DNA from: Chrysochromulina parva
Lineage: Eukaryota > Haptophyta > Prymnesiales > Chrysochromulinaceae
Reading direction: 5' to 3'
Length of the DNA: 27,067 nucleotides
Assembly (NCBI GenBank): GCA_002887195.1
Contig: PJAB01000427.1
Location: 1-27,067 of the forward strand
Every line of letters starts with the position of its first letter. The first letter of the stretch is position 1. The notes under the pieces are model-generated. The model did not search any database and was not told the DNA's origin. It saw nothing but the letters and a program-made list of their open reading frames with translations. Made by a program: the position numbers and the translations under genes. Below, one piece after another: positions 2,461 to 25,227 of this stretch.

Positions 2461-4726
2461 ATGGACGTCGTCAGCGCTCTCTTACGCGAGCTCGCGTCGC
2501 TTCCTTTGCTTGGAGACGACCTTCCTGCGGGCGTATTAAATCTCGCACACTTGCGACGCGCCGTCTCGCACGAGGGCGGCCTCAACCGCCTACGCTGCTT
2601 CGCCGCCAAGCTGCGGGCGGGCAACAATGTGAGCATCGCGGTGCTGGGCGGCTCCGTGTCGGCGGGGTCGTCGTCGCGCGTACGCCCGGATCAGAGCGGC
2701 CTCTACCACCGCAAGCTGCAGCGGTGGCTGCAGTCGCGCTTCCCCGGCCACGTCGGCCACATTAACGCCGCCATGCCCGCCGTGCCGCCAGGCTACATGG
2801 AGCAGTGCCTCTCGCTTCACGTACCTCCGACCGTCGACCTCGTTCTCCTCGAAGCCTCGGCGAACATGTGCGGGCGTGCTCGGCGCGAGGGCGCCTCGTC
2901 CGGGCAGCCGGATCCGTGCGAGCTGGGCCGTGAGTCGGTCGAACGCATGCTGCGCCAAGTGCTCGGCTTTCCGTCGGCACCCGCCGTCGTCTTCGTGCAT
3001 GCATTCCCGTTTTGGACGATGGAGACGCCCAAATCTTGGCACGCGCGCTGGCCGAATGAGGGGCAGCGCGGGCGCACGGTGCCCGCCGCGCCGCTCGCGC
3101 ACGCGTCCGACCTCGCGTTCAGCTATCACAAGCAATGGGGCCACACTGCGAATGAAGACTCGCTCGAGATGCTCGCGAGGTACTACGATCTGCCCTCAAT
3201 CTCGCTGCGCAACGTCATCTGGCACGCGATGAAGGCCAACCGTACGTTTGGCGGGCTGCACCTGCATGAGCTCTATTACGACTGATTGTATGCTGATTGC
3301 CTCCCTCATCAGGTACGTTTGGCGGGCTGCGCCTGCATGAGCTCTATTACGACCGGATCCACCCTTCCAATTATGGGCATGCGATCCTTGCTCACGGCCT
3401 CGTCCATCTGCTCAAGACGGCGCTCCTGATGCTCGAGCTCACCGGAGCTCCGATGCATGCTGCCCATGACGAACCCGTGGTGCCCACGCCCACGTCGTCG
3501 CCCTCGATGTCACCCTCGGCTCTGATTGCCCTCGCCCACGACGACGCCGTGCGTTTCGCGGCGGGGCGCTCGGTGAAGCCCCTCAATGCCAAATTAGGCG
3601 ATGCCAATTCCACAGACGCCCTGGCCACGTGTGCACGGCCCGGCGGCATTCGGACGCTGCCGCCGCAGCCCATGCTACCCAACGTCGCCGGCGCGGAGGC
3701 TCGCCGGCTGGAGTGCCATGATGCTGACTCGTTGCATGCCTTGGTCGAGCGTGAGGGTTGTATCGGCTGGGCGTACGCCGTCGAGCGTTCGCCTTCCGGC
3801 GTGCCAAAACCCGGCTGGATGAGCGCCGTCGTGGGCGCTCAGGTGCACGTGGCCGCAATGAGTGGCTCTGATGAGCCTTGATGAGCCCTGATGAGCTCGG
3901 ATGGCTTTTGATTGTCTTTAATGGCATCTGAGTGCGTCTGAGTGCGTCTGAGTGCGTCTGAGTGCGTCTGAGTGCATCTGAGTGCGTCTGAGTGCGTCTG
4001 AGTGCGTCTGAGTGCGTCTGAGTGCGTCTGGTTGGACTGCGCATGCAACTGAGTGCGTCTGGTTGGACGCGCATGCCACGCGCAGTGCACCTTCTCGTAC
4101 GCTCTCGGCGACACGACGAGCGTGGCTAACCGAGTCGGGATTGGCTACCTGAAGAGCTATGAGCACATGGGCTCCGTCCGTGTCGATTGCATGCACCAGT
4201 GTGCATGCGAGCCGCTCGTGATCGACGCGCACAATCTCGAGCGCATCTCGCCTCTCGATCTCGTCTACTTCTCCGTGCGGATCCAACAGCCGCCTCCAAC
4301 GGCAGAGGCGTTGCGTGAGAGCACCCGGCGGCGCTGCGGCGTGCGCCTTACGGTCCTCAACGCCACGTCATCTGGTCATCACAAGTTTAAGTTGACCGCG
4401 CTCTTTGTGAACAGGTGAGCACTGTGGATAGCACTGTTGGCTCTTTGAGTGCACCTGAGTGCACCTGAGTGCTTTTGACATTCAATCGCGCCCTGTGCTG
4501 GGCAGGCACGGCGACGCGAGCTACTTCGGCCGGTGGATCTACGGCCAGGTGATGCTGATTGCAGGCTGATTGCAGGCTGATTGCAGGCTGATTGCCTCGG
4601 CCGGTGGATCTACGGCCAGGTGATGCTGCCGATCCGTGGACCATCTGTCAACCATCTGCGTGCGACGCGTCTGATTGCGTCTGATTGCGTCTGATTGCGT
4701 CTGATTGCGTACGCACAGGCGACTGA
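2461..4726 (+). CDS. SGNH/GDSL-like hydrolase domain protein (6 exons)
   Basis: Exons: 2461-3241, 3313-3842, 4086-4414, 4506-4548, 4620-4659 and 4719-4726. ATG 2461 has a strong context (AAAATGG); an in-frame ATG at 2431 is possible. The protein begins with a helical stretch, then AVLGGSVSAGS with the candidate nucleophile Ser65 (block I of SGNH esterases). Block III-like INAAMPAVPPGYMEQCL and LVLLEASANMCGR follow. The junction of exons 1 and 2 restores YYDRIHPSNYGH, with the catalytic-type Asp274/His277 pair. A C-terminal beta-rich part (GYLKSYEHMGSVRVDC, CACEP) matches the tail common in algal and fungal SGNH-type proteins. The usual Asn-Asp after block III is replaced by Asn-Met. Substrate unknown; a polysaccharide acyl-ester role is possible. 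The 3' end is the weak point: the last phase-1 junction gives an immediate stop (4726), while a phase-0 junction would extend in an Arg/Lys-rich frame to 4850. Confidence 0.72.
3242..3312 (+). repeat. 71-nt intron 1 of the SGNH gene carrying a copy of exon 2's start
   Basis: The first 41 bases (3242-3282) match 3313-3353 with a single A/G difference; both begin GTACGTTTGGCGGGCTGC. The copy is followed by TGATTGTATGC and then TGATTGCCTCCCTCATCAG as the 3' end. Reading through gives an early stop directly after the copy (TGA 3283-3285). Confidence 0.9.
3899..4034 (+). repeat. 10-nt tandem array (TGAGTGCGTC) inside SGNH intron 2
   Basis: Intron 3843-4085 contains about ten nearly perfect head-to-tail TGAGTGCGTC units, one variant TGAGTGCATC, and a degenerate TGATGAGCCC-type lead-in. 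The array ends in a duplicated CTGGTTGGAC-GCGCATGC segment before the acceptor ACGCGCAG. Confidence 0.9.
4549..4619 (+). repeat. 71-nt SGNH intron 4 flanked by a 32-nt direct duplication of the exon junction
   Basis: The segment TCGGCCGGTGGATCTACGGC-CAG-GTGATGCTG occurs at 4526-4557 and again at 4597-4628. The copy of the upstream exon end sits at the intron 3' end and the copy of the downstream exon start (GTGATGCTG) at its 5' end. Between them is an 11-nt array, GCTGATTGCAG repeated about 3.5 times. Confidence 0.9.
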
Positions 4727-5435
4727 GGCGCGCGGGGCGGTCGCCGTGGCGGACTCGGCCGAGCGACGCAGCAAGGCACGGACCGGGCGAGGCGGCAAGA
4801 GGCGGGGGCGCACCAAGGCGGGGAGAGGTCAGTGGGAGAGGTTACCGTAGGCGGAGGCGCACCATGGCGGAGAAAGGTGAGGCATTTGCGCATGCTTCCA
4901 GGAACGAGCGAACGGAGACCATGAGGGAGATGCAGCTTTCGCCCTTGCTTTCGCCAGCCAGCAGTATTCAGTATACAGTAAGTAAACAGTGAGTATACAG
5001 TAAGTACAGCAACCGACTGGAAGCGAGTCGTGTAGAGGCAAGATCGAGACTGTGCAAGAGAGCCGAAATGTGGGGGGGTCATAGAATTTTCCAGCCCGAT
5101 TAATAACCACCCCATGAATCGTCTAACACTATGACTTTCAACGCACTTCACTCACGCACACTACCCACCAACCAATTGTCACCAACAATACATCCAGATG
5201 CATACAGCACCTCTTTTGGATAGCTCTTGCGCTGCGACAGCAGATTCGGATGAGATCAATTTAGTTTGCGGGAGATGCGCTTCTCCCAGAACTTAGGATC
5301 GCGCAACAGGAGATAAACCTTTTCCTAAAATAGTAGAGAACATCTCGCGTTGCGCGTTCCTAAGTTCTGCCGGAATTGCCTAATACCTCCGTGCAATACC
5401 TCCGTGCGGGGAGAAGAACCGTGCAGAAGAGACCA
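4727..5435. other. Intergenic region; no gene recognised
   Basis: It holds the possible Arg/Lys-rich 3' extension of the SGNH gene (to 4850), then sequence poorer in GC than the genes. An AGTATACAGTAAGTA motif is repeated at 4971-5008. A 13-nt direct repeat (AATACCTCCGTGC) at 5381-5407 lies just before the NF-YC-like start. No tRNA, terminator or convincing TATA element is seen. Confidence 0.5.
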
Positions 5436-6639: not shown

Positions 6640-8681
6640 ATGCAATTGATCTGTCTGCTGCTCCTAAGCACTGGAGTGGCGGCAGATGCTGAGGCTGAGT
6701 GCGACGAGCCGCTGGGCACGCCGCTCTCTACCTTTGCGCATACGATGAACACGGACTTCATCGACAAAGTCACGTCGGGCCGTGCGGGCCAGTTCGTGCC
6801 CTCCACGGGGATGCCGGCGGTCGTGCGCGCGGACGGCTCCCTGAGCATCGTCGACGCGAGCTCCGAGCGCTTCTTCACGTACGTCACCGACAACGGGTGG
6901 AATAATCAGATCCTCAACCTGCTCTGCGCCTTGGACATGGCGCGGCTGCTCAACAGGACGCTGATCATACCGCCGTTTGCGTGGGTACGGCGCCGGGGCG
7001 ACGCGCGCGTGAGCGTGGCGAGGCTGCTCGACCTGAGCACCCTCGCCCGGCTCGGCGTGCGCGTCCTCTGCGAGGATGAGCATGGCAGCGTCGATGGGCT
7101 GGTCGCACCCGCGCTCGCTGCGGCCGGTCGGTCGACGGTGACGCTCTCGGGCGAAGGGCAGCCTCATCGGAGACGCGGCATGCCTCGCTGGTCGCGCGAG
7201 GTCTGGGTGCGCGACCACGCGGGCAGCGACGTCGGTCTGCTCCGGGTCACCTGTTGCCTGTTTTGGACGTGGCCGTTGCCCGAGGAGATCGCGCTCGAGA
7301 TGTACAAGCTGATAGCGTACGCTGAATCCATAACTAATCTCCCCTCTGGCCCCCGCTCATGGGCCTCTGATGGCCCTCTGATGGCCCTCTGATGGGCCTC
7401 TGATGGCCCGCTGATGGCCCTCTGATGGCCCTCTGATGGGCCTCTGGTGGGCCTCTGATTGCCTCTGATTGCCGTCTATACGGCGCCTTCTCTCTCACAG
7501 CATGCGATCCGCTTGCAATCAGTCTCTCATCAAGTACCACCCGACACTCATGCATGCGGCGCGAGAGACTGATTGCATGCTGATTGCCTCCCTCATCAGA
7601 TACCACCCGACACTCGTGCGTGCGGCGCGAGAGGCGGCGGCACCTCTTGGCCCTTCGTACGCGGCGATGCACGTGCGCCGTGGCGACAAGGCCGTTGTCG
7701 ACAAGGCGTACGTCCATGCAATCTTCGGCGGCAAGATGACGACTGATGACCCCTGATGACCCCTGATGACCCCTGATTGCCTCCCTCATCAGCTACGCGG
7801 CCGTCTTCGGCGGCAAGATGACGACCGAATTCTTCGGACAGCTGGCGAAGGACGAGGGGTTCGTCAACGGCGCCACGGTCTTCGTCGCCACGGACGAGCT
7901 CGAACGCAGGTGCGCTGATTGAAACGGATTGCCATTGATTGCCATTGATTGCCATTGATGGCCATTGATGGCTATTGATTGTCATTGATTGTCATTGATT
8001 GTCATTGATTGTCATTGATTGTCATTGATTGTCTTGGTCGCCACGCACGAGTTCGGACGCAGCTGGTTCAAGCCGCTCGCGCAGCTGGGCGGGTACAAGC
8101 TGGTGTTCGTCGACGATCTCGCGCAACCTCCGCTCGTGCTCGCGCTCTCCGCCTTTCCACAGAAGCTCTGGGCTGACGTGCTCGCCATCCTCGAGCAGGT
8201 GCGCTGATTGCCATTGGATTGAAATCGAGTTCCATTGAGTGCTGTTGTTCGCCGTTGAGTGCCATCCGTGGATGGGGCCATGAATGGGCATGAATGATTG
8301 TTCGGCGCTGATTGCCCTCGCCATCTGGACGCGCTGATTGCCCTCGCCATCTGGACGCAGATCGTGTGCGCCGAGGCGCCCGGCGGCTTCGTAGGCTCGC
8401 TGCCCTCTACTCTGTCCGGCCACGTCATCAACGTGCGCCGTGCGCAACACCCGACGGACACGCGTCCGCTGTTTACCAAGGTGTGTCAGACCCCACACTT
8501 GATGACCTCTGATGACTTCTGATGACCTCTAATGAGATCTGATGAGCTCTGATGACCTTGCACGCAGGTTCATGAGACTTGTTGTGACGCGCGCACCGAA
8601 ATGGACCTGCTCAAGCTACCAGGCGTAGCCTCGCTCGCCGACGTGCCGTGCCATCCCCACAAAGGGAATCCCTGGTGTTGA
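6640..8681 (+). CDS. GDP-fucose protein O-fucosyltransferase-like glycosyltransferase (7 exons)
   Basis: Exons: 6640-7316, 7501-7533, 7600-7707, 7793-7909, 8063-8198, 8361-8480 and 8568-8681. Phases agree at every junction and give 434 residues. ATG 6640 is the first in frame and starts a signal peptide (MQLICLLLLSTGVAADA). Motifs in order: DNGWNNQILNLLCALDMARL (~84-103) is the donor-site loop of O-fucosyltransferase-like enzymes, normally GxxNQ. LNRTLIIPPF follows. MHVRRGDKA (~260-268) holds the diagnostic HxRRGD. FVATDE (~303-308) is the usual (I/V)xATDE element. LVFVDDL comes next, then a Cys-rich C terminus ending PWC. Expected role: transfer of a sugar, probably fucose, to secreted or surface proteins in the ER/Golgi. 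Exact donor and acceptor are unknown. Introns 2-5 all carry exon-edge copies. Confidence 0.82.
7365..7480 (+). repeat. TGATGGCCCTC-type array in intron 1 of the fucosyltransferase-like gene
   Basis: About eight units of TGATGGCCCTC or TGATGGGCCTC (11 nt), followed by TGATTGCCTC (10 nt). It lies within intron 7317-7500, which ends with a conventional pyrimidine-rich acceptor (TCTCTCTCACAG). Confidence 0.88.
7534..7599 (+). repeat. 66-nt intron 2 of the fucosyltransferase-like gene, copy of exon 3's start plus cassette
   Basis: The bases from 7535 (TACCACCCGACACTC-TGCGGCGCGAGAG region) match exon 3 from 7600 over about 34 nt with 2-3 differences. The copy is followed by TGATTGCATGC and TGATTGCCTCCCTCATCAG. 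Joining exon 2 to exon 3 reads SLIKYHPTLVRAAREAAAP without interruption. Confidence 0.88.
7708..7792 (+). repeat. Intron 3 of the fucosyltransferase-like gene, copy of exon 4's start plus 10-nt array
   Basis: The first ~36 bases (GTACGTCCATGCAATCTTCG onward, sharing TCTTCGGCGGCAAGATGACG) resemble the start of exon 4 (CTACGCGGCCGTCTTCGGCG). The remainder is TGATGACCCC repeated three times and the TGATTGCCTCCCTCATCAG end. Confidence 0.85.
7910..8062 (+). repeat. Intron 4 of the fucosyltransferase-like gene: 10-nt array plus copy of exon 4's end
   Basis: It starts GTGCGCTGATTG. The body is about eleven units of TGATTGCCAT / TGATGGCCAT / TGATTGTCAT. The last ~29 bases (8034-8062) copy the end of exon 4 (7881-7909): GTCGCCACGcACGAG-TCGgACGCAG versus GTCGCCACGgACGAG-TCGaACGCAG. 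Here the acceptor AG comes from the duplicated exon end. Confidence 0.9.
8199..8360 (+). repeat. Intron 5 of the fucosyltransferase-like gene with two partial copies of exon 5's end
   Basis: It begins GTGCGCTGATTGCC, as does intron 4. Near its 3' end CTGATTGCCCTCGCCATCTG occurs twice, at 8310-8329 and 8334-8353. The second copy leads into ACGCAG. Both resemble the end of exon 5 (GTGCTCGCCATCCTCGAGCAG). Confidence 0.78.
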
Positions 8682-8816: not shown

Positions 8817-10890
8817 ATGGATTCCGACGACGAGTCGGCGCCCGGCGATGGCGTCGCCAGCCTGATCGCGAAGGCCAACGAGCTCAAGGCGCTCGGCAAC
8901 GAAAATTTCACCGCGGGTGACCTTGTCGCGGCCACTGCGGCGTACGAGCAGGCCGTCGCCAAGCTGACATCCGACGCGGCCAAGACGGCCCTCCGCGTGT
9001 GGTGGAAGAGCAACCCGGGCGAGACGGACACGGCGTCGCCACTGCTGGCCGCGTGCCACAACAACCTGGCCGCGTGTCACGTCAAAGCGCAGCAGTGGGA
9101 GAGCGCCCTGCGCGCCGCGTCCGCCGCCGTGGACCTCGATCCCTCCCTCGTCAAGGCCCGGCTTCGACGGGGTGTCGCGTGCTCCCACGTGGGCAAGCTG
9201 GCCGAGGCCAAGGCCGACCTGACCGCCGTGATCAAGGCGGACCCGAAAAATCGGGAGGCGCGCGCCGCGCTCGAGCTCGTGCTCGCCAAGCTCAAGGAGC
9301 AAGCCACGTCTGAACGTGCGATGATGGGCAAAGCTTTCGAAGGGCTCGCGAAAGAGGAAGCGGCGATCGAGGCGCGAGAGAAGGCGGCGAAGGCCCAGGC
9401 GCTCGCGAAGCAGGAGGCGGCGCTGCTGCACGAGTGGCGCCAGGAGTGCGACGCACTACGCCAACGCGGGCCGCCGAACCCCGCGATCGGTCTACTTGCG
9501 TCCGCGGCGGCGTCGGGGGACGCGGAGGCGCGAGCGGCCCTTGATAAGCTTGCACCACTCACGCTTGAGGAGTTCGGGCAGGTGAGTGGCGCTGAGTGTG
9601 CCACTGAGTGCGCCACGCATGCCTCGGATGGCCTGGGATGGCCTCTGATGGCCTCTGATGGCCTTCCTCATCAGGCGAAGCTCAAGGCTGCAACGAAGGA
9701 GAGAGCTCGCCAAGAGGAGCGCGAGGCCAAGCGAAAGGCGGATGAGGACCTGCGAAAGGCTGAGGAGGTGCGCGACAGCGAGAGGAGCTTCGGCTAATTG
9801 CGACTGATTGCGACTGATTGCGACTGATTGCGTCCCTCATCAGGCGCGCCAGCGAGAGGAGGCGCGCCGTGCATCGCAGTCGGCGGTGACGAAGCTGGAG
9901 GTGGAGGACGAGGACGAGGCAGCTTTGCTCGAGGGCTTCAGCAGAGGGTACAAGGTACGCTCCACAGAGTACCACAGAGTACCACAGAGTGTCACCCAGT
10001 GCCACAGAGTGCCACAGAGTGTCCCTGATTGCAGGGGGTACAAGGTAGCACATCTTTGGTCGGATGGCTATTGAAGGCCTCTGATGGCCTCTGATGGCCT
10101 CCGATGGCCTCTGATCGCCTCTCTGATTGCCTCCCTCATCAGGTCCGCGCCGACGGAAGCAAGACATCGTACTTCGACCGCACCGACCAGGTGTGAACGC
10201 CGCAACCATCGGAGGTGGAGTCTGATTGCATGCAAGTGCTCACCACGGCGCCATCCCGTCTTCCCACAGGTGGACACCGCAACCAAAGCGCTCCTCGATG
10301 CCCAAAAGGCGCCCAAGAAGCTCGAGATGGCGCCCACGACGGCGCCCAAGCCGACGCCCACGACGGCGCCCATGCCGACGGCGCCCATGGTGGCGCCCAC
10401 GACCGCGCCGGCGAGCGCGGCCAGTGCTTGGAACAGTGCGGGCACGTGGGAGGAGCGCGACGTGAGCGCGTGGGCCCTCGCCGACGTGCAGAGGCGGCTC
10501 GAGGGGCTGAGCTTGGCCAATATCTCGGTGAGCAACGTCGCGGCGCTCGAGGGGCACGCGTCGATCATCAGCATGCGCGGCAGGGTGAAACGGCCGTTCG
10601 AGCTCAAGTGCGAGATCGAGTGGCGCTGGGGTGCCCAGGACGACGCCGGAGCCGGGGGGGAGGTGCCCACGACGGCGGCCCGTGGCAAGCTGCTGTACAG
10701 CGAGATCTGCCCAACCGGACCTTCCAAATCCGGCCTACCGGCAGCGGCCGTTACGTATGAGCTAGGCGAGCAGTGGACAGTCGCGCCGTCGTCGGCGGCG
10801 CGACCGGCGGTGCAGGCCGAGCTCGCGCACCTCAAGCAGCGCGTCGAGAGCGCCCTCGGCGATTTTGTGGCGGAGCTCGGGCGGAGGTGA
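8817..10890 (+). CDS. TPR co-chaperone with C-terminal Aha1 (Hsp90 ATPase activator) N-domain (5 exons)
   Basis: Exons: 8817-9581, 9675-9767, 9844-9954, 10143-10190 and 10270-10890. All junctions are phase 0, giving 545 residues. ATG 8817 is the first in frame. Residues ~12-165 are a three-motif TPR (KANELKALGNENFTAGDLVAA; HNNLAACHVKAQQWESAL; KARLRRGVACSHVGKLAEA), like carboxylate-clamp TPRs that bind Hsp70/Hsp90 tails. Residues ~170-310 are a long charged helix. Next is GYK-VRADGSKTSYFDRTDQ, then an Ala/Pro/Thr-rich linker (~360-390). Residues ~393-535 begin WNSAGTWEERDVSAWALADV and continue RVKRPFELKCEIEWRW, the Aha1_N pattern (WxxxxWhWEErD). Expected role: cytosolic Hsp90 co-chaperone that couples client or chaperone docking to ATPase stimulation. 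Introns 2 and 4 begin with copies of the following exon; intron 3 holds a copy of GGGTACAAGGTA. Confidence 0.8.
9955..10142 (+). repeat. Composite repeat intron 3 of the TPR-Aha1 gene
   Basis: It starts with about six AGAGT(G/A)CCAC 10-nt units. In the middle it has GATTGCAG followed by GGGGTACAAGGTA (10033-10045), a copy of the upstream exon end plus donor (GGGTACAAG|GTA at 9946-9957). A second array of TGATGGCCTC units then ends in TGATTGCCTCCCTCATCAG. It looks like two successive intron-forming events in one place. Confidence 0.8.
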
Positions 10891-12346: not shown

Positions 12347-12365
12347 GCGCGCGCGCAGCAAGACG

Positions 12366-12462: not shown

Positions 12463-13565
12463 TTCTGGCCATCAGGGACACTCCCAGGCTGATGTACCTT
12501 TATGTACACCTCCGGCTCGGCTTGTCGCACCTCGCACGTACGTCTTCGCGCGTGCGGTGGGCCGGCCGTGTACCCTCTCCGCGATGTTGTACTGCATGAC
12601 ATTACTGTCGCCCAGCCCTCGTAGTCGCCCTCTTGAGACATGTCCTGGTCCTGTTGTACCGCAGCACCACACGGTTGTTCACTCGTGTATACTTCGACTT
12701 CCGCCTCGCCCAGTCTCGTAAGAAAAACATGCAAGCAAGGCAGCTTAGTCTAGAATGTATGTTTGTGTCAAACCAAACGTTTGCTGGGCGCATGGCTGGG
12801 CGGTTGTTTCTAACGCTGAGGCGTTAGATTGGTTGTCTTCAGGGGCAAGCAACTAAGGGGCGGTAGGGCGCTCGCTCCGGCGCTGAGCGGCGCGCACACA
12901 GCGGGCGGGCAGAAGCATGCATGCATACGAGAAGCGGGCGGGCAGAAGCATGCATGCATACGAGAATATCCATCCATTTAGGGACATCATGCCACATTGA
13001 CGAACGGACTCAATGAACGAACCAAGTCCGTCCGTCGCTCTCAAGTGTGTCATGTCTCGCCCTCGTGTCGTGTCAAGAGTGAGCGGAGCGCGCACTCTTC
13101 CCGGCCCGTGGCCGGCTCCCGTCGTCCCGTGGGGCTGTTTGATATTTTGAACGTCCCTTTCACAGATGCGCAGCACAGAGAAGACATGCTACTACTAACA
13201 TACTCACCCATCAGTCTCGAGTCCGACCCAGATCGCAGAAGAGAATAGTTCAATCTAAGAATTCAAATTGTTTCCTCTACGATCAACCCCGTGCGCACGG
13301 GCACGCAGCGGGATGGTTCACCCAAGACCCAACGTCGTGTAGAGCTGCCCAGCACCGACCCCATCAACCGACTACAAAGCCCCCGAACAAACCCCCCAGA
13401 CCACGGGCGCCCGAAAGTTCTATCCTACGCCACGGGCCGTTTCAAGCCAAAGTCTCGAATCTTAAGTTTCAGGACGCTGAGACTTGAAAAGTGGCGAGAT
13501 CACTCGGCGAGATCTCTCGCAAGTCCATTTCCGAGACGCAAGGCTCATCTGCGGAGCCAGCAGGA
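12463..13565. other. Long intergenic stretch (about 1.1 kb), no gene recognised
   Basis: Several short frames are open on both strands (for example 12321-12734 minus and 12853-13176 minus), but none shows a domain, a signal or a plausible splice partner. A 33-bp tandem duplication lies at 12901-12966. The end, from about 13400, is presumably the promoter and 5' UTR of the urea transporter. The transporter frame is open back to a GTG at 13491. Confidence 0.45.
12901..12966. repeat. 33-bp perfect tandem duplication with GCATGCATGCAT core
   Basis: Positions 12901-12933 and 12934-12966 are identical. Both begin GCGGGCGGGCAGAAGCATGC and end ATACGAGAA. The GCATGCATGCA core is shared with the repeat at 12366-12462. 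Confidence 0.92.
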
Positions 13566-15511: not shown

Positions 15512-17575
15512 TCACGCGTCATACGGCGTCAAACGGTGAGCGAGCCGTTTGACGCGCACGAGAAGCTCCCCCAGTTCATTATTTGCGAAGAGGAGAAGCG
15601 CCGAGTCATTCTGTTCCCCATCGCAGTAGTTCCGCGCCGAGAAGAGAGTCACCAGGTGTCCGCCATGCATGTATTTGGCACCTTCGGGCACGAACTGATG
15701 TGAGCGGACGACCATCTTCAGGCCCTCGCGTGCGCAGAACCGGCGTGTCACGTCCGCACCGAACCCGGGGATCCCCGCACCCACATGCTGCATGTTCAGA
15801 CCTTTACTCGTACTGTTGCGTGTGTGCACGCCGTGGGCCATGACCGCATCGGAATCAGCTGGATCACTCCAAAGGGCTTGCGATGCGCATGGGGGCACGT
15901 CAGCATCAGATTCGTCACTCAACGGCCGTCTGACAGCGGCGAGGTCGTCGACCGTCCAGCTGCCGTCGCCGATGCCTCCGTGAAGCACGAGCACCACCCC
16001 GCCGACGCGTGCGGCGAGCGGAAGCCAATCGAAGCTCGCGTGTATCCTCTCGTACACCCCCACCAGCCCACGGTCGGGGATCGTCGAGAAGGCTGGATGG
16101 TGCTTCACGTGATGGCGAAAGCCTCGGAGGCCCATTCCCTCCGACTGGCTGCGGAACTCATGGTTTCCCCGAATGAGGAAGACGCGCGCGGGATAGAGTG
16201 TTTTGAGGGCGAAGAGGAGCACGACGACCTCGAGCTGGTGTGCGCCACGATCGACCCAGTCGCCGTTGAAGACGTACGATGTCGTCTCGATGTCGCCGCC
16301 GTGATGCGAAGGGAAGCCGTACCGGCAGAAGAGCATCAGAAGGTCGCGAAGCTGCCCGTGGATATCCCCAAACACCTTGGCTGGAGCAGGGACCTGCACG
16401 ACCATCGGCTGCGCTATCGCGATGCGCTTTACATGTTCGCACAACCGTCCGATCATATATTCAAGCGAAAGTTGCGCCAACTCAGGCGTTCGACGTCTAT
16501 CCAGTAGACGTTCGAGCGCTGCGCTTCCAGGCATCCAGTCGCGGTGGTCAACGTCGGGCTGCGTGGAGATCTCATTCGAGAGCGCACGCGCATTCTCGAC
16601 CACGAGCTGCGCGATCCTGAAGCGTTCGGTACCGCGAGGGGCGGCGAGCGCCCCGCGCCAGTCGTCTCCAGCGTTGGGACACAGCTCCGGATCCAGGCGC
16701 ATATCAGGAGCTACCGCTTTGGGCCCTGCCATATTGCTCGCTGCGCGATGGGGGCCTCCGGCCGCGGCCTGCTCCATGACCACTTGACGATCGTCCACTT
16801 TGAGGGAGGTCGTGCGCTCCGTCGCTGGTGGATCTCCGATGTTGAGACTGGCCAGAGTCATCAGTGTGCCTTGCTGAACCGCCTGGGCAAACTGTGCGTA
16901 TGTCATCGGCGCTGCCGTGTCGTCCAAAGGCAAGCCCAGGGCTGCCAACACGCGGTCCACATGGGAGGAGCGCCCACAAAGATCGCGGACGCGCTCGACT
17001 AGCTTTCGACGAGCTGCCGCGTTGAGCTCGTTGTCCGATGACATATGCATGGCGAAGAGCGCGCGACATCGAATCTCGATCAGATCGTTGTTTGCGGCGT
17101 CGCGGGCGGGGTCAAAGGTCTCGAGAGCACGACGGAGCATCGCGAATTCGTGACGGTTAAGCAAGGTGGATCTATCGACGTCAGCGGCCTGGAACGCAGC
17201 ATGCAGTGCACGTGCTGACCAGTCGGGCACGCGCTGACGCATTATCGCCTGGAACCGGGCGCTGTCGATGGTTGGTTCGCCGCTTGCTGGAGATGGTGCG
17301 ATGGTTGCCACGTGATCGAAGATGGTGCAGGACTCCACATAATCTGGAGATAAGTTGCCATGTTTGTCTCTCAGGCCTGCACGGATGAGGCGTTCACGCC
17401 GTTCATCGACTGGGCTCTCAGGCATCGGTCGCGGTGGCGGCACCGGCGCGAGCGCGCCCGCAGGGCCGGGATTCATCGCCATGGTACGCGATGCTATGGA
17501 TCGCAAAAAATGTTGCAGCCAAGCAAAAGCGTTCGCTGAAGACGGAGGTCGCTGTGAACGGTGGCTTTCCGTCAT
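15512..17575 (-). CDS. PPP-family Ser/Thr phosphatase with N-terminal EF-hand-like module
   Basis: Intronless, 687 residues from ATG 17575; an in-frame ATG at 17482 is an alternative. The open frame extends to 17794, but a CTTCTACTTCACAG acceptor-like site there suggests a 5' intron or UTR. Residues ~105-145 hold a helix-loop-helix with loop DVDRSTLLNRHE, a plausible EF-hand, within a longer EF-like region (105-235). The catalytic domain (~365-680) has all PPP blocks: VFGDIHGQ (402-408), GDWVDRG (438-444), LIRGNHEF (467-474), HGGIG (532-536), WSDP (569-572), RSHQFVPEG (624-632) and FSARNYCD (645-652). Metal ligands D, H, D, N, H, H are present. Deviations: Trp for Tyr in GDYVDRG, Ile for Leu in HGGL, and Arg for Pro in FSAPNYC. 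The architecture suggests a Ca2+-linked phosphatase, but here the EF-hand is N-terminal, unlike animal PPEF. Confidence 0.88.
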   Translation of the reverse strand: MTESHRSQRPPSSANAFAWLQHFLRSIASRTMAMNPGPAGALAPVPPPRPMPESPVDERRERLIRAGLRDKHGNLSPDYVESCTIFDHVATIAPSPASGEPTIDSARFQAIMRQRVPDWSARALHAAFQAADVDRSTLLNRHEFAMLRRALETFDPARDAANNDLIEIRCRALFAMHMSSDNELNAAARRKLVERVRDLCGRSSHVDRVLAALGLPLDDTAAPMTYAQFAQAVQQGTLMTLASLNIGDPPATERTTSLKVDDRQVVMEQAAAGGPHRAASNMAGPKAVAPDMRLDPELCPNAGDDWRGALAAPRGTERFRIAQLVVENARALSNEISTQPDVDHRDWMPGSAALERLLDRRRTPELAQLSLEYMIGRLCEHVKRIAIAQPMVVQVPAPAKVFGDIHGQLRDLLMLFCRYGFPSHHGGDIETTSYVFNGDWVDRGAHQLEVVVLLFALKTLYPARVFLIRGNHEFRSQSEGMGLRGFRHHVKHHPAFSTIPDRGLVGVYERIHASFDWLPLAARVGGVVLVLHGGIGDGSWTVDDLAAVRRPLSDESDADVPPCASQALWSDPADSDAVMAHGVHTRNSTSKGLNMQHVGAGIPGFGADVTRRFCAREGLKMVVRSHQFVPEGAKYMHGGHLVTLFSARNYCDGEQNDSALLLFANNELGELLVRVKRLAHRLTPYDA

Positions 17576-18310
17576 GTTCCGTGTGAAAGGGATTGTAGGA
17601 ATCGACAAACAGTCCGAGGAGCCAGCCACATGCGCGCGCGCACATCCCCTGCACCCCCTTGCCTGCTCCGCTCTCGCGCCCTCGCGCGCGACGCCGTCGT
17701 ATGGCCGCCGTCTTCGTGCGCCGCGTCTTCGATGCCAACGACGGTGCCCCCCTCGCACGCCCCCTCGTGATGCGACCCTGTGAAGTAGAAGCATGCTCGC
17801 GCCTATTTGTGCTCGTGCTCGGATCCAGGCTATTGGGCTCTTTATCCTGCCCCTTTGATCCTGCTATGCACATGACTCCCCCCATCCCCCCAAGGGCATC
17901 CCCCGCCATGAGTCGAGCATGCTCCACGCCCACCCTTAGCCCACCCTCTCACCCTGTTCCGCGTATGGGTGCACCCTTGGACTAGCATATCACGCTTGCG
18001 CACTCCCCCCACGCGCCCAGTGTGGAAGGTTCCCACTCCAGGTCCCGACACTGAAGTCCGACCCCTGAGCTGACCGCCTGACCCTGAGGTCCGACCACGA
18101 AGATCACGATTGCGACTCGATTACGTTGCAAGCTTGCCAGCCTCTTGAGCCAGCCACTGCCGTGCCACCCCGGCAGCTGCAGTTGGCTCTTCACAGATGA
18201 AGTTGGCTCTTCACAGCTGCAGTTGGCTCTTCAGCGCTCCTCGGTGAGTGGCGAGGGGACTCGACTCTGGATGAGAAGACTTTGGGTGTGAAGACTTCGG
18301 GTGTGAAACT
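17576..18310. other. Intergenic region between channel 3' end and phosphatase 5' end
   Basis: Both genes are on the minus strand. The part near 17790 has an acceptor-like CTTCTACTTCACAG on the minus strand, hinting at a 5'-UTR intron of the phosphatase. Near 18180-18310 there are short direct repeats, AGTTGGCTCTTCA three times and GTGTGAAGACTT-type copies, in the presumed 3' UTR of the channel gene. No coding region is supported. Confidence 0.45.
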
Positions 18311-21300
18311 CTAGGGGGTGACGGAAGCTTCGGGGATGGACAATGCGGGGGCCATCGCGAGCCGATGCTCTTCGGTCTGCTTCTCGATGAACCTGCCCAG
18401 GCCCTCGTAGCGAATCGTGTAACAGTGGGGCGTCGTCTCGGTGAGCACGTGCACAATCTCGGCGCGGATCTGCGTGCCATGGCCCGTACGGTAGAGGACC
18501 GCGTCGCCCTTGGTGAACGCCCCCTTTGTGGAGTCTGTGGAAGTGGACGACGACATCAACCCTGGCATCGTCACAAGCGACGGGCCATCGGCGGTGAGCG
18601 CTGTGGTGAGCGCTTTGCGGATCTTGGCAACGTCGAGTGCCTTGATGCCGCACGTCTCAAAGTGCGGAAGCCCCGCGAGGATGTGCAGGTCCTTCAGGCA
18701 CTCCACACCCTCTTCTTGCAAGTCGCCAAGAACTAGGGCCACAGAGCTCTCATTCACCTCCGCGGCATACAGTAGCCACGTGAACAGCTCGGTGCCATCC
18801 GAATTCATCGTGGCGGAGCCGCCTGCGTGGAAGCGGGCCGCCGATGTAGCGACGGCTGACGCCGAGCTCGGCGCCTTTGAAAGTAGATTTCCTTCGGGGC
18901 CAATCGTGACATGGGATCTTTCCTTCTTGATGCGATGCTCCTTGTCCTTGAGGGTGGTATCCTTGGTATCCTCCTCGAAGACGCCTTCGCGCTCATCACC
19001 CGGCGATGCGGGGATCTCTCTGAAATGAACAGAGCCGATCCCCATCCGCACCTTAGGGACCTTAGGGACCTTGGGACCGGCATTGAGGAGTTGCGACAGT
19101 GTACGTTCGCCCTCGATGAGCGCGTCGAGAAACTTGGGCTCCGTGAGCACACCCGAAGAGGGATCGACGTACCCGGACATACACCGAATGCAAGCGCTCA
19201 GGTCATCGCGAGAGATCTTCGGGTGGAGGGCAACGAACAAGTCGCGCAACTCGTCCGTGTCAAGTTCGCCACTTTCGTCCACGTCGAAGGCGTGGAAGAC
19301 CTGCCTCACTCTCGTGTCGTACTCTTTGCCATCGGCGGGATTGGCCTTCTTGAGCTCCTTGATGCATTTTGCCTGCCAGCGCCCTAGGCGCCCCTGCCGA
19401 ACCCAAACAAAGAACAGGGTTGCCGGGATCATAGTGATGATGAAAATGCCCATGATCGCAAAGCCCACGCTCGTGTAAAGTTCTCGGCCACGGCCAATGC
19501 CGTAGATGAAGATGCCCGCCGTCACGCCGATGTAAAGGGCCGGCAGCGTTTGCCGGCAGACAGAGTCGATGTGCGTGGCGAGCTTAGCCGCGTTATGTTT
19601 GAAGAGGAGGTGAACCACCATCGTCTCGGCCACCGCGATCAGCGAGAGAAGCAGCTGCGAAAGGTTGAAGAGGTCGTACCAGAGCAGCGAGGAGACCTTT
19701 CCTAGGCCCAGGTTGGTCGTCGCCATGTTGGTCAGCGAGATGAGGAAGGCGATGTACAGCACCGACGCGCGGTCGCCGCTGTGCTCTTCGGCATGCATGA
19801 AGATCGCCGTCAGCAAGGAGCCGAAGACGATAATGATCGTCGTGAGCAGCGCACGGAAGATGAACACTGTCGGGTTGCGGTTCGCCATCATAACGACCTC
19901 GCATCGGTGCACCTGCTCCACTCCGTTTTCGAATGGGTGCGCCACACGCACCGTCTCGGACAGGGGTCCGTCTAAGTACCACTCGGCCGTCGGTGGCAGC
20001 AACACTTTGTCCTTGTTCTCCTCCGTGAGGCCCATCGCGGCCAGCACAGGCGAGTCCGCGCCCGTGCCCACGCAGCCGTACAGCCAGGCCCCAGCCACTT
20101 CTATGGTCACGGTGAGTTCCTGCTGGTCAAAGGGATAGAAGAAGAAGACGTGGTGCGACTGGAGCAGCTGGAACTCGATGTCGCCCGTCCAGGAGGCGCA
20201 ACCGACACATGCCGACGTGTTGCGTGGCCCCAACGTGAACTGGTTGGCGATCGGGAGGACGCCCGAGAGCGTTGCTGATGGTGCGGACGCCGGTAGGCTG
20301 CTCCCATAGCCTTCGAGCCAAGGCTGCACTGGCATAGGGACCCTTAGCCCTTCATCTCTCGATCCTGGCGCACCGTCCACAAGAATCGTCTCCGTACCTA
20401 GATGGAAATCGGCGGATGCATCGATGCCACGGTAGCCAGGGACGGCGAATACCTGCATTAACGAGGGCACCCAAAACTTGGAGCGCATCGCGCGGGCCGC
20501 CTCGCGCGCGATGTCGCTCAGGCCCTGCTCAAAGTCGAGCGAGAGCATCCCCGAAAGTGCGCCCGCACACGGCGAGCGAGCGAGGCGTGGGTCGGCCCAC
20601 TGCAGCGTGTACCTCATCTCGGCGAAGATGTAGTTTTCGTTGAAGTCTTGCTGCAGCACCAGGCGGATGGGCGAGAGGTTGAGTGAGATCGCGACCGGCA
20701 CGCGGCCCATGGCGAGCATTGAGGCGCTCGAGGTATGCGAGTTATTTTCTTGCAGGAGTAGCCGGAAGGAGCCATCACTCACACCAACGAGGGTCCCGAG
20801 CGCCTGCGGCTTCGTACTGTAGTCCGTGCGACCAAGATCCTGCTCGGCCATGCACACGGACCGGATCTGGCTCAGTGTGCATGCGCCGGCGTCGTAGCCA
20901 CACTCGCGGTTGTTGCAATTGGGGTCGCAGATTGTGTCACCATACATGGAGGCCATGCACCCATCGCCGCGCTTCGTTTCGGTCAGCGCATTGTTGCGCC
21001 TCTGACACTCGAGCGAGCAGGTGAGACAAAAGTCACGTGAGCCGCAGTCAGTGCAGTCGCTGCCGAACGGGCAGAGCTGCCTAAAAGGAAACGGGTCAGG
21101 GGAGGCGCCGTCGTTGCACACACCCGGGGTGCCCCCTACGCCAGAGGCGTCGCACGTGTTCGAGCACAGGCCCGGTGGCGCTGCGGGAGGCGGAGGCGCA
21201 GGCGGGGGCGAGGGTGGCTTGTAGTACGGCAAAGCTGCGGAGGTGATTGTTGCGTCGGGTCGGCTGGTGACGCCGAATGCGCCGAGCAAGGAGTTCCCGC

Positions 21301-22999
21301 CTATCACGGTCGGTGCTGCCAGGACCGCGATCACGGTAGCCGAGAGACGTCGGGCACGGCGTACGCCTGTGACGTTGGCGAGCATGAGGCTTGCGAGGCT
21401 CGGGCTGCTAATGGCGCTGGTGATCCTCGACTGCACCGTGGTTGCCGTCTCTGTGGGCGTCCGAATACGCACGGCAACGATGACGCCGGTGGCCGTGCCA
21501 CAGGTCACGACGCTGCACGACGTAACATTCAGAACAACTTGCTGGCGCATGCCGCAGTCGGTGCAGTCGGTGCCGATGGCGCAGGATGAGTACTCCGTGC
21601 CCAGACCGCCGTCGTCGCAATCGCCATCGGAGGCCCACTCGCACGTTTCAGTGCAGGCAGACACGTTCATACTCGCCGCGGTCGCGATCGCGGCGGCAAT
21701 CTCGCCATTCACGCTCTCAGTGAACGCGGCGACGTCACCGGCAAGCAAAAGGGCGAAAGTGATGGTGCGGTCTGCCGAATACGCCGGCGCGGTGAGTGGC
21801 GTAGACGCGAAGAGCGTGCGCACCGCATTGGCGCGCGCCGCTCCCGCTGCGGCGGGGACGACCGAGCCAGCGGAGCCGTTAAAGTTGGACTCGGGGAATG
21901 CGAGCCGAAAGGTCATTGTGCTCGCGAGCACCTGTGAAAACTCCCGACCTAGGTGGTCTACGAATCCAGGGCTGGTTGATGTCAGCTCACGAGATACTTG
22001 GCAGCGTACTGGGTGGGTTGTGCAGAGCGCAACGTCGACCACCGTACGCGTGAACTCGACCACTTCCTCCTGAGTCACATTCCGCGGGGGGAAGGAGAAG
22101 GCGACGCGCACGACGGGCACGCCTCCCATGATGAGCGCTCCGCCTGGCAACGGCGAGAGCGGTGGATATGTGGGCGACGGAGGGGACTCCAAGAGGCGGA
22201 TCCCACAATCGGTGCAGTCTGTGCCCAAGTCGCAGTCGCCGAATTCAGCCCCTGGCCCGCCATCGTCGCAGTGGCCGTCGTTGATGTACCAACAACCATC
22301 CGACCCGCTACCATAATTATTCGAGCAGAGGCTCGGTTGTGAAGGCGGTGGTGCCGGTGGATACGGTGGTGATCCCGGCGGCGGCGCTGATGGCGGTGGC
22401 GGCGGCGATGCTGGCGGTGCTGGCGGTGGCATCGGCGGTGCTGGTGGCGACGGTGGTGCTGGTGGTCGTGCTGGTGGTGGTATGATCATACAGATCACAA
22501 AGCCTGGACCCGTGACCGAGCTATCGCTGTACCAGGTCACAGTTGTTCCGGCGGTCACTTGCACATTCGTTGGCCCTTGGGTGCCGGAGAATGTGTTGCC
22601 CCCAATCGTGAGATAATCGCAGCAGCTCTCGGTGTTGAACTCGATGGCGGTGATATTCATTGTCACTTCCGCTCGCATCGTGCAAGCCTCGTTGTCGTTA
22701 TACGATTCGCTGCCATCGGTGATGCACAACCCATTGGAGGTGACCTCGCAATATGATCCACCCGAAACAATCGACCAGCTCGTCCCCGACGGCGACGCCC
22801 CTCGAGGGCCGCAGTCAGCGCAGTCGGTGCCAATCGTGCAATCAGCAAACACCGCGCCTGGGCCGCCATCGTTGCAGTATCCATCGGAGGCGTAGTTGCA
22901 CGTCTCCGTGCACTGCGCATCGGTGGCGCTCACCATCAGGGCGAAGAAGATGGCGTGCGCAAGTCGAGGCGCGGAGCGGCGCCACGAAGATTGAAGCAT
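18311..22999 (-). CDS. Multidomain pentameric ligand-gated ion channel-like protein (1562 aa, intronless)
   Basis: One open frame from ATG 22999 to TAG 18311. A signal peptide (1-28) is followed by four Cys-rich repeats of the DCDDGGPG...GTDCTDCG type (~30-66, 225-268, 449-485, 612-655). There is a CUB-like module (~74-170, ending WYSDSS...GFVIC), three Pro-rich linkers and two SEA-like or adhesion-like segments. A Lin12/Notch repeat lies at ~681-707 (CMASMYGDTICDPNCNNREC). Residues ~765-1040 match a Cys-loop-superfamily ligand-binding domain: LQWADPRLA, FWVPSLMQVF, then HHVFFFYPFDQQELTVTIE with the FPFD-type signature. Membrane spans are at ~1042-1068, 1078-1098, 1105-1133, 1153-1170 and 1176-1200. 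The cytoplasmic end has an EF-hand (FDVDESGELDTDEL, ~1238-1251), a SAM-like helical domain (~1403-1465) and an SH3/Tudor-like tail (~1495-1547). The signature Cys after PFDxQ is absent, as in prokaryotic channels. Ligand and ion are unknown. Confidence 0.85.
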   Translation of the reverse strand: MLQSSWRRSAPRLAHAIFFALMVSATDAQCTETCNYASDGYCNDGGPGAVFADCTIGTDCADCGPRGASPSGTSWSIVSGGSYCEVTSNGLCITDGSESYNDNEACTMRAEVTMNITAIEFNTESCCDYLTIGGNTFSGTQGPTNVQVTAGTTVTWYSDSSVTGPGFVICMIIPPPARPPAPPSPPAPPMPPPAPPASPPPPPSAPPPGSPPYPPAPPPSQPSLCSNNYGSGSDGCWYINDGHCDDGGPGAEFGDCDLGTDCTDCGIRLLESPPSPTYPPLSPLPGGALIMGGVPVVRVAFSFPPRNVTQEEVVEFTRTVVDVALCTTHPVRCQVSRELTSTSPGFVDHLGREFSQVLASTMTFRLAFPESNFNGSAGSVVPAAAGAARANAVRTLFASTPLTAPAYSADRTITFALLLAGDVAAFTESVNGEIAAAIATAASMNVSACTETCEWASDGDCDDGGLGTEYSSCAIGTDCTDCGMRQQVVLNVTSCSVVTCGTATGVIVAVRIRTPTETATTVQSRITSAISSPSLASLMLANVTGVRRARRLSATVIAVLAAPTVIGGNSLLGAFGVTSRPDATITSAALPYYKPPSPPPAPPPPAAPPGLCSNTCDASGVGGTPGVCNDGASPDPFPFRQLCPFGSDCTDCGSRDFCLTCSLECQRRNNALTETKRGDGCMASMYGDTICDPNCNNRECGYDAGACTLSQIRSVCMAEQDLGRTDYSTKPQALGTLVGVSDGSFRLLLQENNSHTSSASMLAMGRVPVAISLNLSPIRLVLQQDFNENYIFAEMRYTLQWADPRLARSPCAGALSGMLSLDFEQGLSDIAREAARAMRSKFWVPSLMQVFAVPGYRGIDASADFHLGTETILVDGAPGSRDEGLRVPMPVQPWLEGYGSSLPASAPSATLSGVLPIANQFTLGPRNTSACVGCASWTGDIEFQLLQSHHVFFFYPFDQQELTVTIEVAGAWLYGCVGTGADSPVLAAMGLTEENKDKVLLPPTAEWYLDGPLSETVRVAHPFENGVEQVHRCEVVMMANRNPTVFIFRALLTTIIIVFGSLLTAIFMHAEEHSGDRASVLYIAFLISLTNMATTNLGLGKVSSLLWYDLFNLSQLLLSLIAVAETMVVHLLFKHNAAKLATHIDSVCRQTLPALYIGVTAGIFIYGIGRGRELYTSVGFAIMGIFIITMIPATLFFVWVRQGRLGRWQAKCIKELKKANPADGKEYDTRVRQVFHAFDVDESGELDTDELRDLFVALHPKISRDDLSACIRCMSGYVDPSSGVLTEPKFLDALIEGERTLSQLLNAGPKVPKVPKVRMGIGSVHFREIPASPGDEREGVFEEDTKDTTLKDKEHRIKKERSHVTIGPEGNLLSKAPSSASAVATSAARFHAGGSATMNSDGTELFTWLLYAAEVNESSVALVLGDLQEEGVECLKDLHILAGLPHFETCGIKALDVAKIRKALTTALTADGPSLVTMPGLMSSSTSTDSTKGAFTKGDAVLYRTGHGTQIRAEIVHVLTETTPHCYTIRYEGLGRFIEKQTEEHRLAMAPALSIPEASVTP

Positions 23000-23583
23000 A
23001 CTGCTCTGGGGAGCGCTGGGGGAGCGCGATGGGGGAGCCGGGGAACGGACACTTGTGTTGAGACCTGCGACGTGAAGCGCAGCACCCGCGTCGAGTCAGC
23101 AACGCCGATGACCCCCAGGGGCGCGCAGGGCGGGCAAGGCGAGCCGGCGCTCGGAGTTGCCGCCTGTGAGTCGGGAAGGCCTCTTCATACTCGCTCCTTT
23201 GCGAATCAGCGAAGGATTCTGCGCGGCGATATAAAACGAGATCCTCAAACAGCAGGGTTCAGATTGAAATCTCCAGGAATTTGCGCTTATTATAATGAAA
23301 ACATTTACAATGTCAGGCATGCTTTTTAATTAGTATCGTCAATAGGCATACCGGGTGGAGCGTGTCACGGGTTTCGATTCAGCGGGCGTTCTTGGGCTCC
23401 ATTTGTATTCACACACCGGACCGCGCAATCGCCAAAAATCGCGCGTGTCGTCGTGTTGTGCCCGACAGCGACACGACGCTCACCAGGGACATGCGACCTC
23501 AACTTCGCTCATCATCGCTGCCTTCGTCGGGACTGTTCTTGGCGCTATCGCGTGCTGGTCACGAAAGCATGCACTGGCGTGCA
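23000..23583. other. Intergenic region upstream of the channel gene and downstream of the TPR gene
   Basis: Its 5' half should carry the minus-strand promoter of the channel gene. There is an AT-rich tract around 23225-23335, and a GTTTTATATCGCC element on the minus strand near 23226-23238 could be TATA-like (weak). The other half holds one copy of the tandem duplication described for 23506-23640. Confidence 0.4.
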
Positions 23584-23640: not shown

Positions 23641-25227
23641 CACCATCGCCTGCATCTTCTCGAGCTGCTCGAGGTTGAAGTGAGCGCTCTCGCTGCTGAG
23701 GGGGGCGCTCAACACGACGCGCTGTAGAGGCACTCAAGCGGCACTCAGAGAGGCAATTAGAGAGGCACTCAGAGAGGCGCGCAGAGAGGCACGCAGAGAG
23801 GCACACGCACCTGCCCGGATAGAGCTCCACGACGCGCTCAAGACGGCGCCTCGCTAGCTCAAGTCCCTCGCTCCCCGCATCCAGCGGCCCCGGAGTCTCG
23901 CGCCAAATGGCAGTGTGCACGAGCGCCGCACCGCTGAGCACCCCAAAATGGATCAGGTGGAGCGCGAGAGTGAGCTCATCAAGGGCCATCAGTGGCCATC
24001 AGTGGCCATCAGTGGCCATCAGTGGCCATCAGTGGCCATCAGTGGCCATCAGTGGCCATCAAGGGCCATCAGTGGCCATCAGTGGCCATCAGTGGCCATC
24101 AAGTGCAATCACCTGAGCGCCCCAAAATGGATCGGGTTGAGCGCGAGCGTTCGTTCCACATCGTCGAGCGCGTCGAGGTGACGCCTCTGTAGGTAGCGAA
24201 GGGTCGCGCGCTGATTCCATGCTTCGGCCCAATTGGGCGCCTGTGCAAGCACCTGATGAGGGATGCAATCAGAGGGTCGCGCGCTGATTGCATGCTTCGG
24301 CCCAATTGGGCGCCTGTGCAAGCACCTGATGAGGGATGCAATCAGAGGGCACTCCGCTCATCAAAGGCAAGCACCTGATCGAGCAGTGCGTGCGCGTCTA
24401 CGGGCTGTTCCAACTCAACCAGCCTCTCGACCTTCCGTAGCTACACACCGAGATTCGTCACCGGAGATTTGTCACCGGAGATTCGTCACCGGAGATTCGT
24501 CACACTCGGATCCCATCAGAGAGAAGCAATCAGACGCTACCTGAGCGTCGAGCTCTCGCTGGCCGCTTCGCTTCCACAGCCGCCAGAGCGCCGCTTCGCC
24601 CTCCGAGACGAGGCGAGGGAAGCGCACCATCACCTGCCGGATCAACTCCGCCGCGCCCGACTCAGAGATCGATGCATGCGCGCCCGTGCCGAACGTGCTC
24701 GCGGCGTGGACCGCGTAGAGCACTTCTCGATCAGTCGCGCCTTGTCGTTGGAGGAGGTCGTGTAGCTTCGCGAGCTGCTGCGCCGCAACGACCGAGGGCG
24801 AGGCGGCCGGCGCAGAGCGCGCGTTGGCATTGCTGATCTGCGCCTGGTGCTCAGCCGCCATCAGCTGCCACACATTGTATGCCTCATCCCACTCCTCCGC
24901 CTCAAGAGCCATCTCGAGAGTATTCGCGAGGCCCGACCAGCTGGCCGCGAACACCTCGCTCACAGGCGCACCGCCTCTGCTGCCGTCGGCCGCGACCACG
25001 CCCCGCGTGAAAACGGCGCCCGTGACCGTGCCGTCCCCTCGTACACCCCTAGGGCCGGCCACGCCGCGATTCCGGTGCAAGGGATGGTCTGGGTCGAGGA
25101 AACCCTTGACGAGATCGTCAAGGTACTGCGCCGAAGCCATCCAATCGTGTGGGAAGCTTGTCAGCGCCCATTGCCACAAAATGGCGACGAGAAAGAGAAG
25201 GATCGCCACACACGACGGTAGCCGCAT
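23584..25227 (-). CDS. Membrane-anchored TPR protein (5 exons)
   Basis: Minus-strand exons 25227-24541, 24431-24375, 24252-24113, 23933-23811 and 23695-23584, all phase-compatible, give 372 residues. ATG 25227 sits in AAAATGC. Residues ~5-22 (CVAILLFLVAILWQWALT) are a signal anchor or signal peptide. The middle (~85-229) is helical with an Ala-rich patch. The joined exons 2-4 read VERLVELEQPVDAHALLDQ, then APNWAEAWNQRATLRYLQ, then DDVERTLALNPIHFGALSG. This is a canonical TPR (NxAEAWNxRA...A...L.LNPxHFGAL) of the type common in small TPR proteins of plants and bacteria. A second TPR-like helix pair follows (LELARRRLERVVELYP). The C terminus is a short coiled-coil-like helix (LEQLEKMQAMVRDQ). 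Likely a protein-interaction adaptor; partner unknown. Introns 2, 3 and 4 carry exon-edge copies. The last acceptor is less certain than the others. Confidence 0.72.
23981..24110 (-). repeat. 13-unit 10-nt array (TGATGGCCAC on the coding strand)
   Basis: On the plus strand the units AGTGGCCATC (with AAGGGCCATC and AAGTGCAATC variants) tile 130 bases without slippage. The array is the body of TPR-gene intron 3 (24112-23934). The part of that intron next to the acceptor copies the end of exon 3: 35 nt ending TTTTGGGG(T/C)GCTCAG with about 3 differences. Confidence 0.93.
24201..24346 (-). repeat. 73-bp tandem duplication creating a second exon-start copy in TPR intron 2
   Basis: Positions 24201-24273 and 24274-24346 are nearly identical (C/G difference near 24217). 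On the coding strand each contains CCCTCATCAG|GTGCTTGCACAGG followed by APNWAEA-coding sequence. The upstream copy runs into a TGA after ACCCTC and is treated as intron; the downstream copy is exon 3. Another GTGCTTGC begins the intron at 24374. Confidence 0.88.
24451..24503 (-). repeat. 14-nt tandem repeat in intron 1 of the TPR gene
   Basis: About 3.8 units of AGATTCGTCACCGG (one with T for C) on the plus strand. On the coding strand each unit contains GTGACGAATCTCCG. Confidence 0.85.

Follow-up and report, generated by a model that had tools for sequence, protein, structure and literature searches.

Introduction

How introns are gained is a long-standing question, and the traces of the process usually decay. 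Among the described systems, introners are given duplications of 3–9 bp in the earlier-described families and of 4 or 8 bp in the examples of the sections available, in a survey that filtered out low-complexity families (PMC9860276). The introns described here resemble introners in that similar introns are dispersed, mostly in aquatic organisms, that one splice site, or even both, can come from the duplicated target and that the length of the message is mostly kept; they differ in that the duplications reach from 14 to ~60 nt instead of 3–9 bp, that some of the inserts contain parts of other exons and that the inverted repeat noticed does not exceed 5 bp (PMC9860276). The introner elements of Amoebophrya, a marine protist, are likewise repeated introns with direct repeats but, as far as the available text goes, these repeats span 3–5 nt, inverted repeats of 8–20 nt are present and the splice sites are mostly non-canonical (PMC7789003). 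In Daphnia, introns attributed to break repair are described with repeats of 4–12 bp (PMC4202315), whereas those found here are longer and enclose a filler resembling the ends of other introns. Across 213 introns of many kinds, repeats of 4–30 bp (mean 11.4) are reported in the accessible part of one study (PMC11782384), and a review, in the portion available, lists seven proposed routes of intron gain (PMC3443670). By analogy, the introns analysed here appear to arise much as introners and the Daphnia break-repair introns do, but with longer and variable duplications. A search of literature titles and abstracts, with subscription papers and preprints outside its scope, returned no exon-edge duplications this long around copied intron ends, which is weak evidence.

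Exon-edge copies in the introns of the window

The window, that is, the whole 27,067-nt stretch of DNA analysed, is contig C427 of a 45.07-Mb assembly of 2199 contigs. Its genes are called SGNH and CNBD (names taken over from a sequence-only reading of the window), FUT (O-fucosyltransferase), TPR-Aha1 and TPR; Pfam domains were matched by FUT (O-FucT) and TPR-Aha1 (TPR and Aha1_N), and the same domain search gave no match for the SGNH exon. The sequence-only reading, which had placed 24 introns, noted that many of them duplicate the adjacent exon edge, which would suggest recent birth. We bounded 18 introns by hand (four in SGNH, five in FUT, four each in TPR-Aha1 and TPR and one in CNBD), a set that covers little of the CNBD gene and all but one of the SGNH introns. 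Copies were accepted at a local score of at least 22 when no more than 12 nt separated their start from that of the downstream exon, or no more than 2 nt their end from that of the upstream exon, limits that were fixed after a first run with the earlier boundaries, in which 7 of 20 introns passed at a score of at least 24 versus ~1.3 expected. In-register exon-edge copies were found in 10 of the 18 introns (SGNH1, SGNH4, FUT1+2, FUT3, FUT4, AHA2, AHA3, AHA4, TPR2 and TPR3) versus a maximum of zero in 1000 exon derangements, which bears out the copies reported earlier (Table 1); those claimed for FUT5 and TPR4 proved weak and fell below the limits. For TPR intron 2, the exon copy stood and the boundary did not: the latter was moved to CTCATCAG at 24253 because the sequence that follows encodes a TPR motif, which scores under Pfam's own cut-off.

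In clear cases, the sequence shows a single anatomy, in which a target segment of 14 to ~60 nt is followed by an intron-end fragment and by the same segment again. Splicing would take out one copy together with the fragment and thereby restore the message: in type Y, GT would start the segment and AG end the fragment; in type X, AG would end the segment and GT start the fragment; in the spanning type, AG|GT would lie inside the segment. The X, Y and both-ended classes of the sequence-only reading are thus seen, although not as separate kinds, all of them fitting one structure that differs in the position of GT and AG; because the anatomy is common, the mixture of two mechanisms proposed there is unneeded. 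The point made there that one splice site comes from the duplicate is right. A single insertion structure, acted on by selection, could give rise to three different ways of obtaining splice sites.

Table 1. Window introns with matches to flanking exon sequence
Feature	Positions	Strand	Copies and cassettes
SGNH intron 1, type Y	3242..3312	+	next-exon copy at 3242-3282, 41 nt with one mismatch to the original at 3313-3353; then a 30-nt cassette with CTCATCAG at its end
SGNH intron 4, spanning	4549..4619	+	segments 4526-4557 / 4597-4628 (32 nt, identical), AG|GT in both; insert 4558-4596
FUT intron 1 (1+2 of the sequence-only reading)	7317..7599	+	exon copy 7535-7567; exact 31-nt core CTGATTGCATGCTGATTGCCTCCCTCATCAG at 7569-7599
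FUT intron, type Y	7708..7792	+	copy 7722-7746 of exon 7804-7828, in register
FUT intron, type X	7910..8062	+	GTGCGCTGATTG at start; 32-nt copy (8031-8062) of upstream exon end at its end
FUT intron with GTGCGCTGATTG start	8199..8360	+	9-nt upstream-exon match only; weak, uncounted
TPR-Aha1 intron 2, type Y	9768..9843	+	copy 9770-9787
TPR-Aha1 intron 3, compound, ends CTCATCAG	9955..10142	+	internal 14-nt copy (10031-10044) of upstream exon end
TPR-Aha1 intron 4, type Y, second cassette family (10228-10252)	10191..10269	+	copy 10193-10208
TPR intron 2	24253..24374	-	two successive units ending CTCATCAG; copy 24273-24325 (53 nt, one mismatch) of exon 24200-24252
TPR intron 3, type X	23934..24112	-	38-nt copy of upstream exon end (23934-23971)

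Support for splicing

The protein P0242, drawn from contigs of at most 1192 nt, shares 242 of 243 residues with the product expected when all five FUT introns are spliced out. Since a search of the same assembly found no close second FUT copy and P0249 runs from FUT exon 1 into intron 1 (as P0254 appears to do as well), P0242 is most likely a transcript and, as such, probably confirms five introns of the window. It skips 11 residues once taken as a small exon, so that FUT introns 1 and 2, listed separately in the sequence-only reading, are one intron. Outside the window, the spliced frame of the C1917 gene (see below) is open, and the spliced product of locus L001 fits aminodeoxychorismate synthase (8hx6) without gaps across the junction. 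The best-scoring named match of two spliced proteins comes from Prymnesium parvum (70% and 52% identity), with Emiliania huxleyi scoring lower for the second of them (the one at 52%); the matches of a urea transporter include a transcript labelled with a Phaeocystis taxid, a dinoflagellate and diatoms. By the matches of the two spliced proteins, the DNA probably comes from a haptophyte.

Cassettes across the assembly

The 18-base tail TGATTGCNTCCCTCATCAG has 957 exact matches in the assembly and its reversed control none; the 31-mer core has 387 matches at up to three mismatches, and a second 3′ cassette, in which GCATGCANGTGCTCACCACGGCGCC precedes a pyrimidine stretch and CACAG, has 405 exact matches, with no matches for the controls of either, only part of the 957 and 405 having been placed within introns. 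No cassettes were found in the viral contigs searched. Six cassette matches in other genome contigs all belong to bacterial records and were taken as chance. In each intron, the similarity between cassettes extends to a single boundary, and the opposite end consists of target sequence.

Alignment of introns with their flanking exons, run with shuffled controls on the window and on chosen loci (all of the latter picked by cassette, lineage word or homology), yielded copies far above the shuffles. For introns ending in CTCATCAG (109 sources, namely 108 loci and the window, with 95 terminal cassettes scored), a downstream copy starting within 2 nt at a score of at least 24 was present in 51 of 95 versus 0.4 per shuffled set, and absent in 44. 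These copies measure 14–64 nt (median 26, quartiles 21 and 33.5), the 64-nt copy, at L064, being over-extended by the alignment and L040 being a tandem artefact; 18 of the 51 are identical to the exon, and the first bases are GT in 42, GC in five and GA in one, with three offset. Another cassette precedes 13 of the 51, which are therefore later units of arrays. Introns started by GTGCGCTGATTG (AGGTGCGCTGATTG, 26 unique sites) carry an AG-anchored copy of the exon end in 16 cases versus 0.05 expected. For the second cassette, 16 of 30 sites pass versus 0.3 expected, 14–15 being the safer figure given that at least L077 is a match to the cassette itself and L079 is doubtful; the two 3′ cassettes are unrelated and yet share the anatomy. 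Low-complexity arrays of 10–11-mers could align randomly, and the similarity might then reflect chance or repeats and no intron gain at all; the shuffled pairs (0.4 of 95, 0.05 of 26, 0.3 of 30 and 0 of 18) contradict this reading, to which we assign a negligible probability.

Gain at formerly empty sites

The C1917 gene (L105 and L106) contains ten introns, and its homologs bear GTPase and Hsp20 domains. A homolog on contig C1028, 85% identical in nucleotide sequence, is a single unbroken frame that runs through 10 of the 10 C1917 junctions without interruption. Nine of these are firm, as the alignment around junction 1 is poor. For this gene, introns were thus created at previously intron-free sites. 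Over 306 bases in nine hand-picked duplicated stretches, with junctions 1 and 6 excluded, copy and exon differ at 8 positions (2.6%) and exon and homolog at 36 (11.8%), so that the duplications would be younger than the split, unless gene conversion evened out the copies. The C1028 gene may be a paralog or belong to a co-binned relative, and CTCATCAG does not occur within the 5.1 kb read there. The recent birth of introns proposed in the sequence-only reading appears, from these comparisons, well supported by the homolog empty at ten sites, the duplications younger than the split and the inserts with pieces of other introns. Many young introns seem to have retained their target duplication, a source seems traceable for some of them and, for one gene, there seems to be a homolog whose sites are empty, which makes models of intron birth testable junction by junction.

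Some inserts bear pieces of the exons of other genes, and copies can therefore be ordered into a chain. The word GATTGGTGGAGGTCGCTGATTGC has five matches in the assembly at up to two mismatches: at L064 it is partly the gene's own exon, and it recurs as an insert at L065 (7 kb away on the same contig), L038 and L098, where it stands behind 12 nt of the L065 exon. We infer from these sequences a three-step order of copying, probably from L064 to L065 to L098. A second word, from an exon at L043, is found again in inserts at L042, L063 and L115. Exact young copies also share contigs more often than expected (7 extra versus 0.9), as counted with interpolated contig sizes on 70 matches of a 30-base pattern, reduced to 56 by dropping those within 300 nt, four of the clustered sites lying in the C1917 gene.

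Structure of the duplications and inserts

A search for cassette-like spacers in sense orientation flanked by direct repeats of 18 nt or more, counting one event per target segment, returned 109 sense events: 39 of type Y, 16 of type X, 21 spanning and 33 that fit no clean splicing rule. The segments have a median length of 28 nt (quartiles 24 and 35), and the spacers, which the search requires by design, one of 52 nt (quartiles 39 and 73; range 15–189 nt). Direct repeats flanking a filler, as in break repair, are thus present in these events, and the filler is common to other introns. Duplicated exon segments were not found in direct adjacency without filler, the arrangement of AGGT-type duplication, the copies being separated by a spacer through the design of the search; AGGT tandem duplication, named in the sequence-only reading as another route, leaves the fragment between the copies unexplained. 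A separate count of 197 direct-repeat pairs found a cassette-like spacer in 117 and none in 80, the motif occurring in 0.28 of random segments; some of the 80 pointed to the second cassette.

Between the two copies, the fragment either holds a putative branch-point-like CTGAT or CTCAC, a pyrimidine run and AG, and so brings a 3′ splice site ready for use, or begins with GT. Once segments containing a cassette end were removed, the right junction showed an intron-like 3′ end in 34 of 36 type Y inserts, a figure that follows partly from the definition of Y. The corresponding counts are 2 of 15 for type X, 4 of 18 for the spanning type and 7 of 29 for the unclassed inserts, the class labels in part defining the insert ends. 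Because the X, spanning and unclassed inserts mostly have no intron end, the precise end of the type Y inserts is probably a product of selection. Every one of the 11 registers of the 11-mer is represented among the insert starts. At the free junction, microhomology averages 1.54 versus 0.65 expected (26 junctions, p 5e-5), six C1917 junctions having been added by hand and L040 and L064 dropped as misaligned or over-extended, and 1.0 without the C1917 gene (16 junctions, p 0.09); microhomology is suggestive and, depending on one gene, unestablished.

Mechanism of intron gain

With slightly better than even confidence, we favour the view, built on sequence comparison, that these are recently gained spliceosomal introns that would have arisen by capture of intron ends at staggered breaks or through template switches, filtered by splicing. 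The process would start with staggered breaks or nicks, or with a backward template switch; the gap would be filled by a short templated copy from another intron and the target duplicated through fill-in or re-copying. Insertions that splice cleanly would be kept by selection, new introns would become donors and tandem units would result from slippage. In favour of capture are the anchored exon copies far above shuffles, with three kinds of insert, the 11 of 26 insert starts away from the CTGATTG repeat boundary, the non-Y inserts mostly without an intron-like 3′ end, the exon words that recur in inserts at other loci, the common anatomy of two unrelated cassettes and the clustering of exact young copies on contigs. 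Against it stand the weak microhomology once the C1917 gene is removed, the 15 of 26 inserts that begin no more than 2 nt from the CTGATTG boundary, as a defined 5′ end would give, the 44 of 95 introns without anchored copy and the 33 of 109 duplications that fit no clean rule; no break or repair intermediates were seen. More tentatively, the mobile unit may possess neither fixed ends nor an enzyme of its own, any splice-competent intron-end fragment being able to enter staggered breaks as a copy made during repair or by a template switch in replication, to duplicate 14 to ~60 nt of target and to persist because it splices. If so, unrelated cassettes would take the same route, each new intron would be a donor and splicing competence alone would drive the intron burst.

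The insert starts near CTGATTG, the dispersed copies (957 of the tail and 387 of the 31-mer, with empty controls), the several young inserts that equal the 31-mer core to within one base and the 5-bp CTGAT/ATCAG inverted repeat on that core, beside which inspection by eye noticed no longer one, would all be consistent with a conventional introner, namely a tiny non-autonomous transposon served by some integrase and making unusually long target duplications. We consider this unlikely, since the length of the duplication varies widely instead of being constant and short, the other 11 insert starts lie elsewhere, some inserts include pieces of other exons and an unrelated cassette behaves alike.

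The ends of the type Y inserts recall a different process, in which the RNA of an excised intron enters a staggered nick through reverse splicing or reverse transcription, so that the insert has a fixed 3′ end at CAG and a shortened 5′ end and the target is duplicated: these inserts end at the intron end, their 5′ side varies and the copy begins at the exon start, and the clustering of young copies on contigs would fit as well. Such an RNA route is rather improbable, because in type X the insert is anchored to the 5′ end of the intron and, among the 18 spanning inserts, no more than the 4 mentioned above have an intron-like 3′ end; it explains type Y and leaves X and most spanning events unexplained.

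Tandem units of copy plus cassette are present, for example, at L027, L060 and L043. In the potato RdRp gene, according to the part of the report available, the 3′ signals of an intron and the start of an exon underwent a tandem duplication like that of the secondary units described here, but in a single local event, whereas some fragments in the present introns match introns elsewhere (PMC4974935). Repeated local duplication of this kind is very unlikely as the general explanation, given that several first units directly adjoin coding sequence and some fragments match the introns of other genes; as the sole route it already fails for the C1917 introns, and it remains for the secondary units.

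Additional cassettes and apparent variant splice sites

A second 3' splice-site cassette, GCATGCAAGTGCTCACCACGGCGCC...CACAG, is present in intron 4 of the TPR-Aha1 gene (window 10191-10269) and at other loci; its sequence is unrelated to that of the first 3' cassette, and a search of the assembly returned 405 exact matches to it. Other recurring spacers, namely TATGACGAACCCTCACATCC arrays and those of the TTCACAGCG type, were observed at three loci elsewhere in the assembly (L067, L073 and L080) and may represent additional families. Near-identical units, each composed of an exon copy and a cassette, are arranged in tandem at L027, L043, L056 and L060, as well as in the window itself (24200-24349). 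In some introns of this kind, those at L016, L077, L087, L111 and junction 8 of the ten-intron C1917 gene, the apparent intron start is GC in place of GT, and in the L022 intron it is GA.

Other features of the window

Three long open frames and one inverted repeat are listed below. The 1594-residue frame adjoins intron-dense genes, and a 301-residue open frame adjoins the inverted repeat.

Open frames and inverted repeat in the window
Feature	Position	Strand	Remarks
Inverted repeat	5287-5369		28 nt, 89% complementary, arms 27 nt apart
Urea transporter	13488-14702	plus	Long open frame
Calcineurin-like phosphoesterase	15512-17863	minus	Long open frame
1594-residue open frame	18311-23095	minus	LNR/Notch match; EF-hand matches below cut-off
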